In this document: one piece after another, positions 5,020 to 52,237 of the stretch
Numbering within the stretch: position 1 is the first letter of the stretch
How the letters are laid out: every line of letters begins with the position of its first letter
From: Nitrososphaeraceae archaeon
GTDB taxonomy: Archaea; Thermoproteota; Nitrososphaeria; Nitrososphaerales; Nitrososphaeraceae
DNA: 64,000 nucleotides
Assembly (NCBI GenBank): GCA_031316115.1
Contig: JALDRC010000009.1
Coordinates: 62,001-126,000, forward strand
Direction: 5' to 3'
Notes under the pieces: model-generated
Databases searched by the model: none
The model's input: the letters and a program-made list of their open reading frames with translations, nothing else
What the model was told of the DNA's origin: nothing
Made by a program: the position numbers and the translations under genes

Positions 5020-6106
5020 TTATTGTTATTTTTTAGTCTATATTTTTATATTTAAATACTTTATAACGAGAGTTAGTATCAAATTTAATTCTATTATTTT
5101 GGGAAAGATACTCTAGAGTCTTATTTTTATTTCTAGATCTATTTTATTTTAGTATTTTAGCACATAGCAATTAAATTTTAGATGTATTCAATTGGATTGA
5201 TGATAGTAGATTCTTAGGTCTAGTATTATTTTAGCCAAGAATCAAAAGATTTTTTTATGTATTTTCGATATAATAAAAATAAAATAATAAATTAAATAAT
5301 ATATTTTGCTAGTGATATTGAAAAAATGATATTCATATTCAATTAGTCATTTTATTTAAATTTATAATCTTAAATTGTTAGATCTAGCCATAATATTTTT
5401 TTAGACTTTTAAATTACTATAGAATATTAAATCATATCAATAACCATGTAATTAAGGTTTTTATCTTATAAAACCCCGCATCGTGGTTGTAATTGTTATG
5501 AATTTTAAGAGTTTATTCAATCATCTTAGTCAACTATCAAACATAATGAAGATGAAATAAATCCCTCATCAAAAGCCTAAATAAAAAAATTTCCTGTCTA
5601 TTCTAGAAGATATTTATTTCCTCGTAAATACAAAATGTTATTGCTTTTTAAGAAATTATCTGTAATTCTACTATATCGTTCATATCTTTTTAGCTTTAGG
5701 AATATTTAGCAAATTAATAATCACTTCTTGAAAATTGATATCTATATTTCTAATACTTTTTAACATGTCTATAAAAATATACTAAACAAGTGGCGATTCA
5801 TCATTTAACTAAAACATACACAACGTTAGTAACTAGATCATTTTTAGGCTGACCAATGTTACAGTTTTCCTTTTATTAGACTAATTTGAATAGATTGAAA
5901 ACAAATATCATATGAGACACATTTCCAACTATTTTTAATTTGTTGGTAGTCTATTAGCTATGATCTATTTATTTATTTTATCAATACAACAGAAATTTTC
6001 AACAAGATTTAACTATTATCATAAATTAATAATTGGTTAAATTCCTTAGAGATGAGATAAAATTATCACTTCAAAGAATATATATGAAATATAAATATGA
6101 ATAGCC
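5020..6106. other. Long non-coding stretch
   Basis: Nearly 1.1 kb with stops in all frames and no convincing short gene. T-runs just after 5019 (around 5030-5052) are likely transcription termination sites. Nothing else could be assigned. Confidence 0.5.
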
Positions 6107-7102
6107 ATGCGATCGTCTATGTTAATCTATCCAATTTTTCTTTTATTAATTGTTATAACAAACCTCGATACTGAGAAACCATTTGATTTTCAAAGTGTTT
6201 ATGCAGAGGAACAATCTTCTGAGATAGATTCAGCCTGGAAATTGGGAAAATCTATGTCTACTCCTAGAACGGAAATAGCTGTTACGAGTATTGCTGATAA
6301 TATTTATGCAATAGGAGGATTTGATAAGTTTGGTAATGTATTGGATACTGTAGAGGTTTATAATATATCCAATGATACATGGAAAACTCTAGAATCCTTA
6401 CCACAACCACTTCATCATGCTGCTGCAACAACATTTAACGATACTGTTTATGTATTAGGTGGATATACAAATAATAATTGGAAAGCCTCAGATAAATTGT
6501 ATATTTATGATCATAAAAATAATAGTTGGACAGAAGGACCTCAAATGCCTACTTCCAGAGGAGCTCTATCAGCTGAGTTCATAAATGACATACTTTACGC
6601 TATTGGTGGTGAAGGAACAGGAGGTATTATGAATACTAATGAGGCATATGACGTAAAAACAAACAAGTGGGTATCAAAGTCACAAATGCCTACTGCTCGA
6701 CATCATGCTGCATCTGAAGTCGTTAATGGAAAATTGTATATTCTTGGAGGACGAATAGAAGGCGACTTACCAATTACAAACACTGATGTTACAGAAATGT
6801 ATGATCCTACAACAGATAAATGGATAACACTGGAATCTATGCCATCAAAACGTTCTGGAATAACAGCTTCAGCCTATAACGGTGAAATCTTCGTGTTTGG
6901 CGGAGAAGATCTTATAAGAACATTTAACAACAATGAAAAATATAATACAACAACAAATCAGTGGCATATAGAAGAATCACTACCAACATCACGTCATGGT
7001 CTTGGATCAGCTTACTATGATAATAACATTTTTGTAATAGGCGGAGGACCAAAACCTGGATTAAGCGTTAGTGCTATAAATGAGATATTTAGTTTAAAAT
7101 AA
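6107..7102 (+). CDS. Secreted Kelch-repeat beta-propeller protein
   Basis: 331 residues with a signal peptide (LIYPIFLLLIVITNL, cleavage near VYAEE). Residues from about 45 to 328 are Kelch repeats of about 48 residues: each has a GG doublet after hydrophobic residues (IYAIGGF, VYVLGGY, LYAIGGE, LYILGGR, IFVFGGE, IFVIGGG), a Tyr in the next strand and a Trp before MPTxR-type loops (SMSTPRTE, QMPTSRGA, QMPTARHH). Six blades are countable, a complete propeller. Kelch propellers bind proteins or sugars; here it would act outside the membrane. It is monocistronic and its ligand is unknown. Confidence 0.85.
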   Translation: MRSSMLIYPIFLLLIVITNLDTEKPFDFQSVYAEEQSSEIDSAWKLGKSMSTPRTEIAVTSIADNIYAIGGFDKFGNVLDTVEVYNISNDTWKTLESLPQPLHHAAATTFNDTVYVLGGYTNNNWKASDKLYIYDHKNNSWTEGPQMPTSRGALSAEFINDILYAIGGEGTGGIMNTNEAYDVKTNKWVSKSQMPTARHHAASEVVNGKLYILGGRIEGDLPITNTDVTEMYDPTTDKWITLESMPSKRSGITASAYNGEIFVFGGEDLIRTFNNNEKYNTTTNQWHIEESLPTSRHGLGSAYYDNNIFVIGGGPKPGLSVSAINEIFSLK

Positions 7103-47003: not shown

Positions 47004-49274
47004 TCAATAAAAATTATCTAATTTATATATTGATTGTAGATTTTTATCAAATGCTATTCCAAATGGTTCTAATACGGTATTACAAGTGTCAATTAATAAT
47101 TCAGAATATCTCTTAATATCATAATCAGTTTTATTATCTAATAATTGCAAGGGAAGTACTCTATTTGATTTAGTTTTACTATAATCTGTTATAATATATT
47201 GTAAAATTTGACCTGCTTTTAGATATTCTCCATTCAATTCAAGCTGTCTTAAAGCGTTATTTTCTAGTGTATTTCTTTTTTTATCATATTGATTGTAATC
47301 TTTTGAAAGCAGTTTTGTAAATACCAGTTTTTCAGGATATACTTTACGAGTTTTCAATAGAACAAGATAGTTTTGAATTTTTTTGATTATTAGAGATATT
47401 TTATTTTGTTTTATATCTGAAATTGAATTTCCTTTGGACAATATATCTAAAATTTCGTTTTGGCATTGTGAGAAAAACTGAGGTGTATCATGTCTTCTTG
47501 ATTCGATACCTCTTGTTTTTAGAGTTCCATCTTCAAATACTCCAAAATATCTATCTAGTACTGGAAGATGTGGATTTATTTCAGAAGGAAGAAAAGCAAT
47601 CCATTTGTATATTCCTTCAAAGGATATGTCAAATTTAGTTTCCCTTTCTATAGTTTCTTTTAATTTGATATAATCATTTTTTGTTGTACTCTTTTCGTTT
47701 TTTTTGACATAAATTGAGTCTACTATTCCATGTAAGACATCAAAACCCATATCTTCAGCAGTATGCATCGTTTTAGAAAGAATGTTTCTTGCAAAAGCAC
47801 AAACAGCTATATGTGCATCTATTCGTCCAAATTTTGCATTACTAAATCCTAAATAACCAAAGGAAGTTACCAGGATCCATTTTAAAGATGATTGTCTTTT
47901 ATCATAAATATTTTTTAATACTAAATCGGATGTTTTATTTTTAAGATTTTTATATTTTGATCTTTTTTCTAATACTACTTCTAATGATTCAGGAACTAAT
48001 CCTTTTTTATTACAAATGTGGTAGTTTATATCAGGTACCGTAAATTGAGGATTATCAAAACAACAATCACATAATACTGTCTCTGCTGAAATATTTCTCT
48101 TTAACATTATATTTGGATAAAGAGAAACAAAATCAAATTCTGCTACTTTTTCATGTAATCCTATTTGTGGTTCTAATATTAAACCGCCTCTATCAGCTAA
48201 AAAAAGTTCCATCATATTTTTAGGATTTTCATTCAACAATGGTTTCCAAGGTATTAGTAAACCTCTTTTTGTAGCATTATAAAGATGCAAACTTGTTAAA
48301 CATCTACCAATAGAAGCTCTTGATGCCTCATGCAATGGAATCCTACATAATCTGGAAATTTCGAATAAACCTTCTAAATCTGAACCAGTTCTAATTGTAA
48401 ATGAATTACTTTTATCAATATGGATCCTGCCGAATAATTTAATAACCGATGGTTTAAAATAGGTTTTACCATAAGAAAAAAACGTATTTCCTTTTCTTTT
48501 CGGATTTGTTAAAGGTATAGTATTATCTCTACTTAGACATAAATCAACTTTATTTAATTTTGCTCTATAAATTAAATATGGAAATGTAAATGAATCTCCA
48601 TCATCTGTAAAAATAAAATCTGGATCTATAGTTTTAACGATTTTTATTAATTCATTTAATAATTCTTTTTCTGATTTGCCTGAAATATCTATAATTTGGT
48701 TTTTGTTATTGTTATTATCATAATGTGTAATGCTAATAGAGTTTAATTCATCTGTTATTTTTATAATTTTACCCTTTTGAAAATTAAGCTTAAGATGAAT
48801 CGTTTCAAAATGTGGAAGCAAGTAATCAGTAGATTCTACATTATCATTTTTTTTAGATTTCCAAATCAAATTTGATTTGTTATCATTATCAATTATCTCG
48901 AAAAATCCTAAAGGAAATATGTTATGATCAAAAAAATATTGTTGTTCAGGCAGTAAATCTACATCGTATAATCTAAAATCATTATACCCATTCATTTTTT
49001 CAATAGAATTTGTTAATTTTGAATTTTTATGTAAGGTGACAAGTTTTATGACAGTTGATTTTTTTGTATCTGTTATTGTTTCTAATCTCTTAACGAATTT
49101 GTATGAGCTAATTGAAGAACAAATATAATCATCTTGAACTAATTTCTTCAGTTTGTCTGTATTATCCGAGGCAACATAAAAATAATTCTGCCATTCGTCT
49201 TCAATACGAATATACCTAGAAGTATTATTATTATCGATATTTTCTAAATCATTTAATCTTATCCAAAAAACCAT
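47004..49274 (-). CDS. Divergent family-B DNA polymerase, exonuclease apparently inactive
   Basis: 756 residues. The polymerase core is intact in outline: motif A EFDFVSLYPNIM with Asp381, motif B LKWILVTSFGYLG (Lys kept; canonical NSxYG changed to TSFG), and motif C GIVDSIYVKK with Asp519 (first Asp of the usual DTD lost, metal-binding second Asp kept). The 3'-5' exonuclease region is recognisable (HLKLNFQKGKIIKIT for Exo I, TDDGDSFTFPYLIYRA for Exo II), but the DxE of Exo I and the FD Asp of Exo II are absent. That predicts a non-proofreading enzyme. It is the last gene of a minus-strand operon behind a degenerate RadA-like protein and two small proteins. A translesion or mutagenic repair polymerase is the best guess; it is not the replicative PolB. 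Confidence 0.85.
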   Translation of the reverse strand: MVFWIRLNDLENIDNNNTSRYIRIEDEWQNYFYVASDNTDKLKKLVQDDYICSSISSYKFVKRLETITDTKKSTVIKLVTLHKNSKLTNSIEKMNGYNDFRLYDVDLLPEQQYFFDHNIFPLGFFEIIDNDNKSNLIWKSKKNDNVESTDYLLPHFETIHLKLNFQKGKIIKITDELNSISITHYDNNNNKNQIIDISGKSEKELLNELIKIVKTIDPDFIFTDDGDSFTFPYLIYRAKLNKVDLCLSRDNTIPLTNPKRKGNTFFSYGKTYFKPSVIKLFGRIHIDKSNSFTIRTGSDLEGLFEISRLCRIPLHEASRASIGRCLTSLHLYNATKRGLLIPWKPLLNENPKNMMELFLADRGGLILEPQIGLHEKVAEFDFVSLYPNIMLKRNISAETVLCDCCFDNPQFTVPDINYHICNKKGLVPESLEVVLEKRSKYKNLKNKTSDLVLKNIYDKRQSSLKWILVTSFGYLGFSNAKFGRIDAHIAVCAFARNILSKTMHTAEDMGFDVLHGIVDSIYVKKNEKSTTKNDYIKLKETIERETKFDISFEGIYKWIAFLPSEINPHLPVLDRYFGVFEDGTLKTRGIESRRHDTPQFFSQCQNEILDILSKGNSISDIKQNKISLIIKKIQNYLVLLKTRKVYPEKLVFTKLLSKDYNQYDKKRNTLENNALRQLELNGEYLKAGQILQYIITDYSKTKSNRVLPLQLLDNKTDYDIKRYSELLIDTCNTVLEPFGIAFDKNLQSIYKLDNFY

Positions 49275-49364
49275 CTTGTTGTTATTTTTAGAAAGATAAA
49301 TATCAAATAACCAACCAGTAATAATATTAGTAATTAAGATTTCTCCTCCTGATTGATTATTATA

Positions 49365-49676
49365 TTATTGTTTATTTTGTTTCACTTTATATAGTAAATT
49401 CTTATGATGTTCTATTAAAATACTCATAATAACTGAAGTAGTAGTAGAAAAAGAATCTTGATTTACTTTTGCATTAATTGCTGAAGAGTATTTGTAACAG
49501 TTTTTAAGCATATCATAAAATAATTCTCTTTCGTGTTTTCTTAAGCAATCTGCATAACTTTTCCATGATTCTATTTCTTTGGTAATAATATCGTCATAGG
49601 GAAAAAGATTGGACGAAGATAATATTTCTTTTTTCACCTCTCTAGTAGATAACAATAACAATTGAAAAAATTTCAT
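49365..49676 (-). CDS. Small helical operon protein B (polymerase module)
   Basis: 103 residues. The core SWKSYADCLRKHERELFYDM, then KYSSAINAKV and SVIMSILIEHHKNLLYKV, is helical. This core can be aligned by eye with residues ~17-70 of the preceding small protein (YIQNLDKSKQKIFKYMF, NLIMFLLSLYNNKKILLL), so the two appear to be paralogues. It overlaps that gene by 35 bp in another frame and lies 90 bp before the polymerase gene. Likely an adaptor between the RadA-like protein and the polymerase; this is inference from operon order only. Confidence 0.65.
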   Translation of the reverse strand: MKFFQLLLLSTREVKKEILSSSNLFPYDDIITKEIESWKSYADCLRKHERELFYDMLKNCYKYSSAINAKVNQDSFSTTTSVIMSILIEHHKNLLYKVKQNKQ

Positions 49677-49896
49677 TTAAATTCTTTTTTAACAATAATA
49701 TTTTTTTGTTATTATACAAAGATAGTAAAAACATTATTAGATTAGTATCACAGTAAGACTCAGAGTTAGAGAGATATGCAATTGAAAACATATATTTAAA
49801 TATTTTTTGCTTACTTTTGTCTAAATTCTGGATATATATTACACCACTTTTTTCCGTTAATGCAATAATTCTAAATGCTGGAATCGTTCTACCCAT
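49642..49896 (-). CDS. Small operon protein A (polymerase module)
   Basis: 84 residues. The N-terminus MGRTIPAFRIIALTE, then KSKQKIFKYMFSIAYLSN and MFLLSLYNNKKILLLKKNL, shows the same helix order as protein B. It begins 3 bp after the stop of the RadA-like gene and overlaps protein B by 35 bp, so translation is coupled. It could be the first half of one longer protein split by a frameshift: the overlap is larger than usual and both halves have the same core. DNA-binding function unproven. Confidence 0.55.
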   Translation of the reverse strand: MGRTIPAFRIIALTEKSGVIYIQNLDKSKQKIFKYMFSIAYLSNSESYCDTNLIMFLLSLYNNKKILLLKKNLNEIFSIVIVIY

Positions 49897-49899
49897 TTT

Positions 49900-50517
49900 T
49901 TACACTATTTTATTAGATGTTATCATTATTTTTGACTTTTGTGTATTAATATTAACAACTTTTTGAATTCCATCTATCATTACAGGAGAAAATATTGCAA
50001 TTATTGATTTTGAAATACTATTTATAGAGTTGATCATGTGATTCAAAAGCCATTTTCTTTCAGAAAAATGTAATTGCTCATCTACAGCAAATAAATCTGT
50101 AATTATTACAAGATTTGACTTGTACTTTTGAATCATATTTGGTAATTTACAAATTATTGTATCAGCAAGTTGATGTGCAGTAAAGGATCTTGTTACGATA
50201 ATTCTCTCTAAAACTGAATCAACATTTATCCCATATTTAATGGCATAATCTACAAAACTGTAAAAATCCAAATGAGTTAATTGACCTCTTTTGTTCCCAT
50301 CAATAATGGTAACAGAAGGAGAGTTCAAACCTCCATAATTTCTTGGCAATAATGCTTTAATAGCTAATTTAGGGATCAAATCATAAAGATTTAGAAAAAG
50401 GGTTGGTGAACCAATCGTTAAATTAATTAATTGATTCTTTTGTATATCTATTTTGAATGACTTTAACAGGTAATCATGAGCTGATACAAAAAGTGGAGAT
50501 TCAAGATTGGTAAACAT
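49900..50517 (-). CDS. RadA/RecA-like protein lacking Walker A
   Basis: 205 residues. Archaeal RadA features are visible: YAIKYGINVDSVLERIIVTRSFTAHQ corresponds to the RadA helix, conserved strand and HQ before the L1 loop, and NLVIITDLFAVDEQLHFSER to the Walker B strand with the following SER/RQ region. Where the P-loop should be, the sequence reads LTIGSPTLFLNLYDLIP, with no GKT. ATP binding is therefore unlikely. First gene of the operon with two small proteins and the polymerase. In bacteria, degenerate RecA-like ImuA/SulA-type proteins sit in the same place relative to translesion polymerases, so a bridging role to real RadA filaments is proposed. Confidence 0.75.
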   Translation of the reverse strand: MFTNLESPLFVSAHDYLLKSFKIDIQKNQLINLTIGSPTLFLNLYDLIPKLAIKALLPRNYGGLNSPSVTIIDGNKRGQLTHLDFYSFVDYAIKYGINVDSVLERIIVTRSFTAHQLADTIICKLPNMIQKYKSNLVIITDLFAVDEQLHFSERKWLLNHMINSINSISKSIIAIFSPVMIDGIQKVVNINTQKSKIMITSNKIV

Positions 50518-50700
50518 TTTGAAATACCTTATTTGTCAATAAAAAAATAACAAAAATATTTTATCAGATCGCAAGACGAGAATACTTAATTTTTTAAAAA
50601 CTACTTCACTAACACTAAAGATCCATTTGTTTTTGTTTTTGTTTTTTTTTAGATTCTTGTATACAATTTTTATCATGATATCCTTGATCATTAACATAAA

Positions 50701-50799
50701 TTAACCTAATCATACTACTTAAATGTTATGTTAATTTAACCTAAAATTATTAAAAGTTGCTTTAAGTTAGGATAAAGGTTATATCATACTTTAACCTAA
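50701..50799. promoter_or_regulatory. Repeated TTAACCTAA boxes upstream of the putative regulator
   Basis: Three exact copies of TTAACCTAA lie at 50701-50709, 50736-50744 and 50791-50799, with a related inverted form (ttaagttagg, 50762-50771). The last copy overlaps the TATA-like ctaaatatat at 50796-50805, just 18 nt before the ATG at 50817. This is the layout of an operator for the divergent gene and perhaps for the polymerase operon on the other side. Confidence 0.5.
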
Positions 50800-50816
50800 A
50801 TATATCTATTACTAAT

Positions 50817-51212
50817 ATGGCACAAAAAAAAGGTTGGTTAACCGTGCAGGTAAGAGAGGAAGTCAAAAATAATTTATTTGATATATATAATAAAGATAAA
50901 AAAAGGCCGTCTAATCAAAAATTCACCGCATATTTAGATCTCATTTTAAAAAATACAATTGAATTCAATAAACAAGTTACAAAATATGGTCCGTTTCTGG
51001 AATTTACTTCTGCAATAGACAATCACATAGTTGTTAAAGACAATACAATGAATAGACTTGTAACGATATTTATAAACTCTAAAAATAAAGAGTTACAGTG
51101 TGATTTTTGTCAAAAAACTGATTGTTTGCATATAGGATTTTGTTATGCAGTACCAGAAATTTATAAGGTATTAATTGAGAACGGTTTTAGACCAAATAAA
51201 GATCGAAAATAA
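50817..51212 (+). CDS. Putative DNA-binding regulator with Cys cluster, divergent to polymerase operon
   Basis: 131 residues. The N-terminal WLTVQVREEVKNNLF, a helix, then RPSNQKFTAYLDLILKN looks like a ribbon-helix-helix-type or similar dimeric DNA-binding region (one strand, two helices). The C-terminal part has CDFCQKTDCLHIGFC, four Cys and a His fitting one zinc or Fe-S site. It is transcribed away from the polymerase operon, with three TTAACCTAA boxes before it, suggesting autoregulation and control of the operon. The DNA-binding assignment is inference from pattern. Confidence 0.6.
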   Translation: MAQKKGWLTVQVREEVKNNLFDIYNKDKKRPSNQKFTAYLDLILKNTIEFNKQVTKYGPFLEFTSAIDNHIVVKDNTMNRLVTIFINSKNKELQCDFCQKTDCLHIGFCYAVPEIYKVLIENGFRPNKDRK

Positions 51213-51513: not shown

Positions 51514-52237
51514 GGTGCTGTTAAGTTAGCGAAAGAGCTAAAGCTATGAATGTTCTATTTCTAATCTATGGTCATTAGATTATTTGAAAGAAACAGAATA
51601 TCCACATGTATAGTAATGTATTCTTTGTATTTGTACTTTCTTGGTCTCAGTCTACGAAATACGTCTAAAGCACTGGAACTGTTCAAGGATCAAAAAAGAA
51701 GTTATGTTGCAATTTGGGAGTGGATTCAACGTTTTGGTTCATTGCAGATTTTTAAGAGAAAAAGAGTTTCAGCATTCATCGTAGATGAAACAATTATTCA
51801 GATTGGTGATCAGCATTTTTGGTTATGGATTTGTATTGAACCAGTTCAGAGATCTGTGCTTGGAATCCATATATCCAAAGAGAGAAACATGTTTGTAGCA
51901 GAGAATTTTATCAGTTCTCTTGTATCCAAATATGGTAGACATACAGTTTACACAGATGTAGGTACATGGTATCCACAAGTATGTAACTTTTTACATCTAA
52001 AACATAGATTGAATTCACCTTTTGAGAAAAGTCTGATGGAAAGAGTGATGCAGTACTTTAAGGATAGAACAGAATGTTTTGATGATTACTATCCGTGTAC
52101 CAAGAATAATGGTATAAAATGTGATCTACTACATGTATACAATTGGATGAAATTGTTTGTTTATCTATATAATTCAAAAGTTAGAAATATTATTTTATTC
52201 AAAATTGGAGGTGAAATACTCTTAACTTAACAGCACC
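51514..52237 (+). mobile_element. Complete IS6-like insertion sequence with perfect 8-bp target duplication
   Basis: Terminal inverted repeats ggtgctgttaagtta (51514-51528) and taacttaacagcacc (52223-52237) are perfect over 15 bp. The flanking gattatag at 51506-51513 and 52238-52245 is an exact 8-bp duplication, as IS6-family elements make. Element length is 724 bp with a single transposase gene. Identical flanks point to a recent insertion, placed between the putative regulator of the polymerase module and a cupredoxin gene. Confidence 0.93.
51568..52230 (+). CDS. IS6-family (IS240-like) DDE transposase
   Basis: 220 residues filling the element; the stop lies inside the right inverted repeat. 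DDE residues are recognisable: Asp in AFIVDETIIQIGDQHFWLW, Asp in VYTDVGTWYP and Glu in SLMERVMQYFKDRTECFDDY. The N-terminal helix region NTSKALELFKDQKRSYVAIW is the DNA-binding part. No frameshift or stop, so it is probably active. ATG at 51568 or 51571. Confidence 0.92.
   Translation: MVIRLFERNRISTCIVMYSLYLYFLGLSLRNTSKALELFKDQKRSYVAIWEWIQRFGSLQIFKRKRVSAFIVDETIIQIGDQHFWLWICIEPVQRSVLGIHISKERNMFVAENFISSLVSKYGRHTVYTDVGTWYPQVCNFLHLKHRLNSPFEKSLMERVMQYFKDRTECFDDYYPCTKNNGIKCDLLHVYNWMKLFVYLYNSKVRNIILFKIGGEILLT

Follow-up and report, generated by a model that had tools for sequence, protein, structure and literature searches.

A probable PolB2 translesion-synthesis operon in a Nitrososphaeraceae archaeon, with a candidate regulator gene and putative operator boxes in its divergent promoter region

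Background

The archaeal PolB2 mutasome, which comprises the proteins iRadA, PPB2 and PolB2, was published as an operon in 2014 (PMC4104785); a model of the complex, a heteropentamer in which PolB2 and iRadA are joined by three PPB2 subunits, followed in 2025 (PMC11791011). The PPB2 protein (arCOG07300) is a helical protein of ~90 aa that carries the signature MGRT, and in operons with a duplicated PPB2 gene this signature is found on one copy only (PMC11791011). The D(K/R) motif of PolB2 represents the contact with the PPB2 arm (PMC11791011). In Sulfolobus, PolB2 was characterized as the damage-inducible polymerase responsible for targeted mutagenesis (PMC7390963); it extends mispaired ends past lesions (PMC8764526), and the operon is controlled via the Orc1-2 damage response (PMC7390963, PMC8764526). 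Motif C of the Sulfolobus islandicus enzyme reads IID, yet this protein is a robust polymerase without proofreading (PMC8764526); substitution of the first aspartate of the DxD motif is typical of most members of the PolB2 group, but it is not strictly required.

Functionally similar systems are represented by the bacterial ImuA-ImuB-DnaE2 proteins and by Pol V of E. coli (UmuC-UmuD'2-RecA), which likewise combine a RecA-family protein with a small partner and a low-fidelity polymerase. They differ in that their polymerases belong to the unrelated families C and Y and in that PPB2 is without a sequence counterpart among them. Here we describe a PolB2 locus and its divergent promoter region in the window, i.e. 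the whole stretch of 64,000 nucleotides of a Nitrososphaeraceae archaeon that was analysed.

Results

Genetic composition and conservation of the operon

The genes encoding iRadA, two PPB2 paralogues and PolB2 are located on the minus strand at positions 47004-50517 of the window, where they share one orientation and are separated by short gaps or overlap slightly (Table 1). An ORF check of the window bore out the coordinates of all five ORFs described earlier. With an estimated probability of roughly 0.85, the deduced proteins identify these four genes as the PolB2 translesion-synthesis operon of the archaeon, with regard to both its identity and its predicted role. The locus shares with the published PolB2 mutasome (PMC4104785, PMC11791011) the three protein families, the gene order and the operon organization, and additionally the restriction of the MGRT arm to one of the PPB2 copies, the decay of the exonuclease and the loss of the first aspartate of the DxD motif. 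It differs in two respects: the version of the Nitrososphaerales normally includes two PPB2 genes, and in the window a divergent gene encoding a protein with a cysteine cluster replaces the orc1/cdc6 or lexA neighbours that were reported elsewhere. The core system has thus already been published, and the central idea of the original prediction, an archaeal mutasome counterpart that uses a family-B polymerase for translesion synthesis, is right but not new. The new elements are the candidate regulator encoded by the divergent gene and the putative operator; no study that combines PolB2 of Nitrososphaera-type archaea with a regulator was found in the literature searched.

Table 1. Positions of the operon genes, the proposed operator boxes and the divergent gene in the window
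Feature	Position	Strand	Description
PolB2 (Dpo2-like family-B DNA polymerase)	47004..49274	-	756 aa from first ATG; assigned by Pfam DNA_pol_B, profile, gene order and motif C HGIVDS
Second PPB2 paralogue without MGRT	49365..49637	-	90 aa from GTG 49637; 103 aa from ATG 49676 (ORF 49365-49676)
PPB2 with MGRT N-terminal arm	49642..49896	-	84 aa, MGRTIPAFRI...; assigned by alignment and MGRT signature (PMC11791011)
iRadA, inactivated RadA/Rad51 paralogue	49900..50517	-	205 aa; without N-terminal helical domain and without Walker A
Small ORF between promoter and iRadA	50536..50697	-	53 codons, putative coding; starts near box 3
Box 3, TTAGGTTAATTTATGTTA	50692..50709	-	proposed operator near iRadA transcription start
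Box 2, TTAGGTTAAATTAACATA	50727..50744	-	35 bp from box 3 in every case
Box 1, TTAGGTTAAAGTATGATA	50782..50799	-	adjoins proposed TATA box of divergent gene
Divergent Cys-cluster protein, proposed operon regulator	50817..51212	+	131 aa; N-terminal RHH-like segment, C-terminal CxxC-x4-CxH cluster

The conservation of the operon was deduced from 201 genomes of the order, 129 of which are of good quality. A family-B match to the PolB2 query was detected in all 129 good-quality genomes, and about 80 loci encode full PolB2 relatives. The expectation of a conserved four-gene order was borne out, as the arrangement iRadA-PPB2-(PPB2)-PolB2 was found at dozens of loci in the Nitrososphaerales and beyond, including those of Bathyarchaeota, Methanomethylicota and Thermoprotei. 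Operons of Bathyarchaeota and Methanomethylicota encode a single PPB2, those of Nitrososphaerales usually two. In several genera of the Nitrososphaeraceae, PolB2 and the iRadA-PPB2 operon occupy different places in the genome; examples of a stand-alone PolB2 gene, which may lie beside a pirin gene, with iRadA-PPB2-PPB2 at another place are provided by L153, L114, G107:C26, G089:C20 and G143:C247.

The assignment of iRadA to the Rad51 family is weak for the single sequence (Pfam Rad51, E=2.5e-4), and a profile of 40 members matched solved RadA with E=3.4e-17. The AlphaFold2 model (pLDDT 88, pTM 0.85) was matched to RAD51/RadA structures by Foldseek with a probability of 1.00. The position of Walker A reads LTIGSPTLFLNLYD, without a GxxxxGKT motif, and the protein is consequently, as proposed from the sequence, RadA-like in fold and devoid of Walker A. 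Upstream of iRadA, ORFs similar to the small ORF of Table 1 (M.KDLIIRIAY...) are present at the same place in genus-mates and absent in G116. The likeness to ImuA-ImuB-DnaE2 drawn in the original prediction holds at the functional level; the hallmarks of that system, a family-C DnaE2 and a Y-family ImuB, were not found, since the polymerase belongs to family B and the operon is devoid of a Y-family gene.

The divergent gene and the shared promoter region

The gene with the cysteine cluster is divergent from the operon, as first noted; its product is outside the published complex and regulator-like, and no description of it was found in the literature. Members of the family occur in 136 of the 201 genomes, with up to eight copies each, and an alignment revealed C95, C103 and H105 (window numbering) in 29 of 29 sequences and C98 in many of them. 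The N-terminal half displays a strand-helix-helix layout similar to that of RHH transcription factors (CopG, the N-domain of TraM, AvtR), with weak, exclusively sub-threshold matches to RHH families (RHH_5, 0.016; VapB antitoxin, 0.036; DUF6290, 0.0099) and to solved RHH structures (TraM, 0.31; AvtR, 1.6). The protein differs from these factors by its C-terminal metal-type cluster domain. A Foldseek comparison of the whole AlphaFold2 monomer model (pLDDT 85) with solved structures yielded no match, and a Pfam scan of the whole family yielded nothing above the cut-off. Assignments to SecB (NCBIfam, 1.8e-4) or SrfG were rejected, as both were far below the cut-off. The fold is proposed to be, probably, that of a ribbon-helix-helix (RHH) protein plus a metal cluster.

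Cys genes beside iRadA were detected in the window, L146, G116, G179, G158, G199, G104, G113, G146, G098, G056, G002, G133, G028 and a bathyarchaeon. On the tree of the Cys family, which is short and has long branches that leave the exact number uncertain, adjacency to iRadA requires 11 label changes, at least 8 of which are forced by well supported branches. The independent cases include L229, a genome with iRadA-PPB2 separate from PolB2. By a rough estimate that considers one to two copies per genome and about 2,500 genes, less than one case of adjacency is expected by chance. These data indicate that the Cys family came to adjoin iRadA several times independently. In most genomes the Cys gene is not beside iRadA, and since most family members are located elsewhere, the gene is not an obligate part of the operon.

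Several further observations were made on the genomic neighbourhood of the family. A shortened, stop-containing Cys paralogue immediately precedes a Y-family polymerase gene (L238:1850-3467; G000:C2). In L229:3390-4807, L256, L263 and L265, the gene downstream of the Cys gene encodes a DUF72 protein, irrespective of whether iRadA is close by; DUF72 is reportedly a known neighbour of PolB2. In L278 and L285, a gene assigned by eye as dCTP-deaminase-like lies downstream of the Cys-family gene in the same orientation. Just downstream of the Cys gene of the window, an IS240-type DDE transposase is encoded at positions 51568-52230 (Pfam, 2.3e-7).

In the window, the minus strand of the 300-bp divergent region carries a set of three TTAGGTTAA boxes (Table 1). 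The same triplet is present at the shared promoter in seven further loci (L061, L002 and L246, all of G179, as well as L146, G116, G214 and G215), which belong to the genus of the window and one other genus. Boxes 2 and 3 are spaced by exactly 35 bp in all eight loci, and the distance between boxes 1 and 2 is 51-66 bp. A box triple occurred in none of 300 simulated windows. A search for a genome-wide regulon yielded none, as the 19-bp box consensus, with one mismatch allowed, was detected at this promoter only in the 3.16-Mb genome. The exact 17-bp box occurs 10 times in 70 genomes of the family, with eight of the ten occurrences at this promoter, and single strays aside the box is limited to the two genera. 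It is absent from the promoter of the Y-family polymerase gene of the same genome that adjoins the Cys-gene remnant. Boxes 2 and 3 flank a TATA-like element, TTTAAGTA or TTTAATAA, and box 1 directly adjoins an AT-rich, TATA-like stretch that belongs to the divergent gene. Where other genera carry the Cys gene next to iRadA, different repeats were seen by eye in the promoter region. The contig of L061 is A+T-rich and carries G+C-rich DUF72-like sequence at both ends (L061:121-868 and 5856-6113), possibly reflecting a chimeric assembly.

The geometry of the boxes would suit a repressor that shuts both promoters. The Cys protein may accordingly be imagined as a dedicated, autoregulating and probably repressing regulator of the operon that would bind the three TTAGGTTAA boxes, of which one lies at its own promoter and the other two flank the TATA-like element of iRadA, and that would release the operon on DNA damage. 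In its full form, this proposal describes a lineage-specific DNA-damage regulator, i.e. a metal-binding RHH-type repressor with dedicated operator triplets on the PolB2 mutasome, whose family was repeatedly recruited to damage-tolerance genes in Nitrososphaerota and which replaces LexA or Orc1-2; it is put forward tentatively, at about one chance in three. Alternatively, the Cys gene might be an unrelated neighbour, and the boxes might serve a different regulator or reflect the general structure of promoters, an explanation that comes somewhat short of an even chance. It gains from the location of most family members elsewhere, from a fold that is not proven and from box sequences that are not shared by the remaining genera in which the Cys gene adjoins iRadA. 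The repeated independent adjacency to iRadA and the precise coincidence of the boxes with this divergent promoter in eight loci argue against it, and lineage-own boxes are expected from a diverging local regulator.

Sequence motifs of PolB2

The deduced PolB2 protein matched Pfam DNA_pol_B with E=3.3e-34 and additionally archaeal B-type polymerases; its closest named relatives, with 77% identity, are from Nitrososphaeraceae metagenome assemblies. A PADLOC match suggesting a homing endonuclease was rejected, as it covered the polymerase part of that model alone. According to the original prediction, the metal ligands of motifs A and C were kept, which applies to motif A (EFDFVSLYPNI, with Asp381 invariant in the alignment of relatives) but only in part to motif C. 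The latter reads HGIVDS, with I517-V518-D519-S520 invariant in 18 of 18 aligned relatives, so that the first aspartate of DxD is replaced by isoleucine and the second alone is kept. The proposed lack of the Exo I and Exo II acids was confirmed: threonine replaces aspartate in Exo II of the window (GDSFTFPYL), and the Exo I region, FETIHLKL in the window and FKKIHIKL in sister species, is devoid of a conserved acid pair. The D(K/R) motif precedes motif A as D361-R362, with the aspartate invariant and R or K in all aligned sequences.

The isoleucine in motif C of all aligned relatives, together with the missing ATPase motif of iRadA and the proposal of inactivated enzymes with a possible regulatory role in the 2014 study (PMC4104785), might point to a catalytically dead PolB2 in a structural or regulatory complex, acting for instance in replication restart or origin control. 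This explanation is considered unlikely, as the Sulfolobus enzyme with the same type of change is active (PMC8764526, PMC11791011) and the aspartate of motif A and the second aspartate of motif C are invariant.

The reading frame of PolB2 extends upstream into a conserved in-frame GWLFDIY segment (window 49275-49334) with a GGAGG site and without an AUG, GUG or UUG start. A GUG is present there in L146, and no start codon is in frame in L061 and L062. PolB2 probably starts upstream of 49274 at a non-AUG codon, with the frame reaching about 49334.

The PPB2 paralogues

The two small proteins are paralogues, as had been proposed, since iterated profiles started with either of them arrive at the same family, which comprises about 106 ORFs. 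The copies of the window are divergent and share 20% identity. The presence of MGRT on one copy only matches the published situation in operons with duplicated PPB2 genes. Comparison with relatives suggests that the second PPB2 probably starts at GTG 49637, not at ATG 49676. An interpretation of the second small ORF as a broken or frameshifted PPB2 tail, which the overlap of the ORFs when read from ATG and their fusion into one 194-aa frame in G179 (L061) might suggest, is very unlikely in view of the tandem PPB2 genes that are the rule in the order, the separate starts, the conservation of both parts and the duplicated PPB2 genes of the published survey (PMC11791011). Further PPB2 pairs, fused or in tandem, are encoded in the same genome at G000:C15:12763-13281 (L226:3755-4282) and G000:C1:67384-67909 (L227:3882-4331), without adjacent iRadA or PolB2, and in the relative G195 the number of PPB2-like matches reaches 16, including some short fragments.

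Discussion

The confirmed RadA fold, the absence of conserved exonuclease acids and the conserved gene order support the operon as an archaeal mutasome counterpart. Because of homology and conserved anatomy, the operon of the window is expected to work like the Sulfolobus system. The S. islandicus Dpo2 protein (PMC7390963, PMC8764526) belongs to the same polymerase family and shows the same change in motif C; the locus differs in that no Orc1-2-type regulator gene was seen at the operon of the window. By analogy with the Sulfolobus work, PolB2 would be an active extender polymerase without proofreading. According to the published models, iRadA may dock on PolB2 as Rad51 subunits dock on each other, and a PPB2 trimer would put one MGRT arm between PolB2, iRadA and the DNA. 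By analogy with published work, the complex would carry primers past lesions and thereby raise both survival and mutation.

The published archaeal translesion system is now extended to relatives of the abundant soil ammonia-oxidisers, and duplication of PPB2 is the rule in the Nitrososphaerales. DNA-damage sensing in these archaea is undescribed as far as the searched literature shows. The Cys-cluster gene and the operator triplet provide a concrete candidate for the damage switch, and the repeated recruitment of the Cys gene beside iRadA makes this question directly testable.
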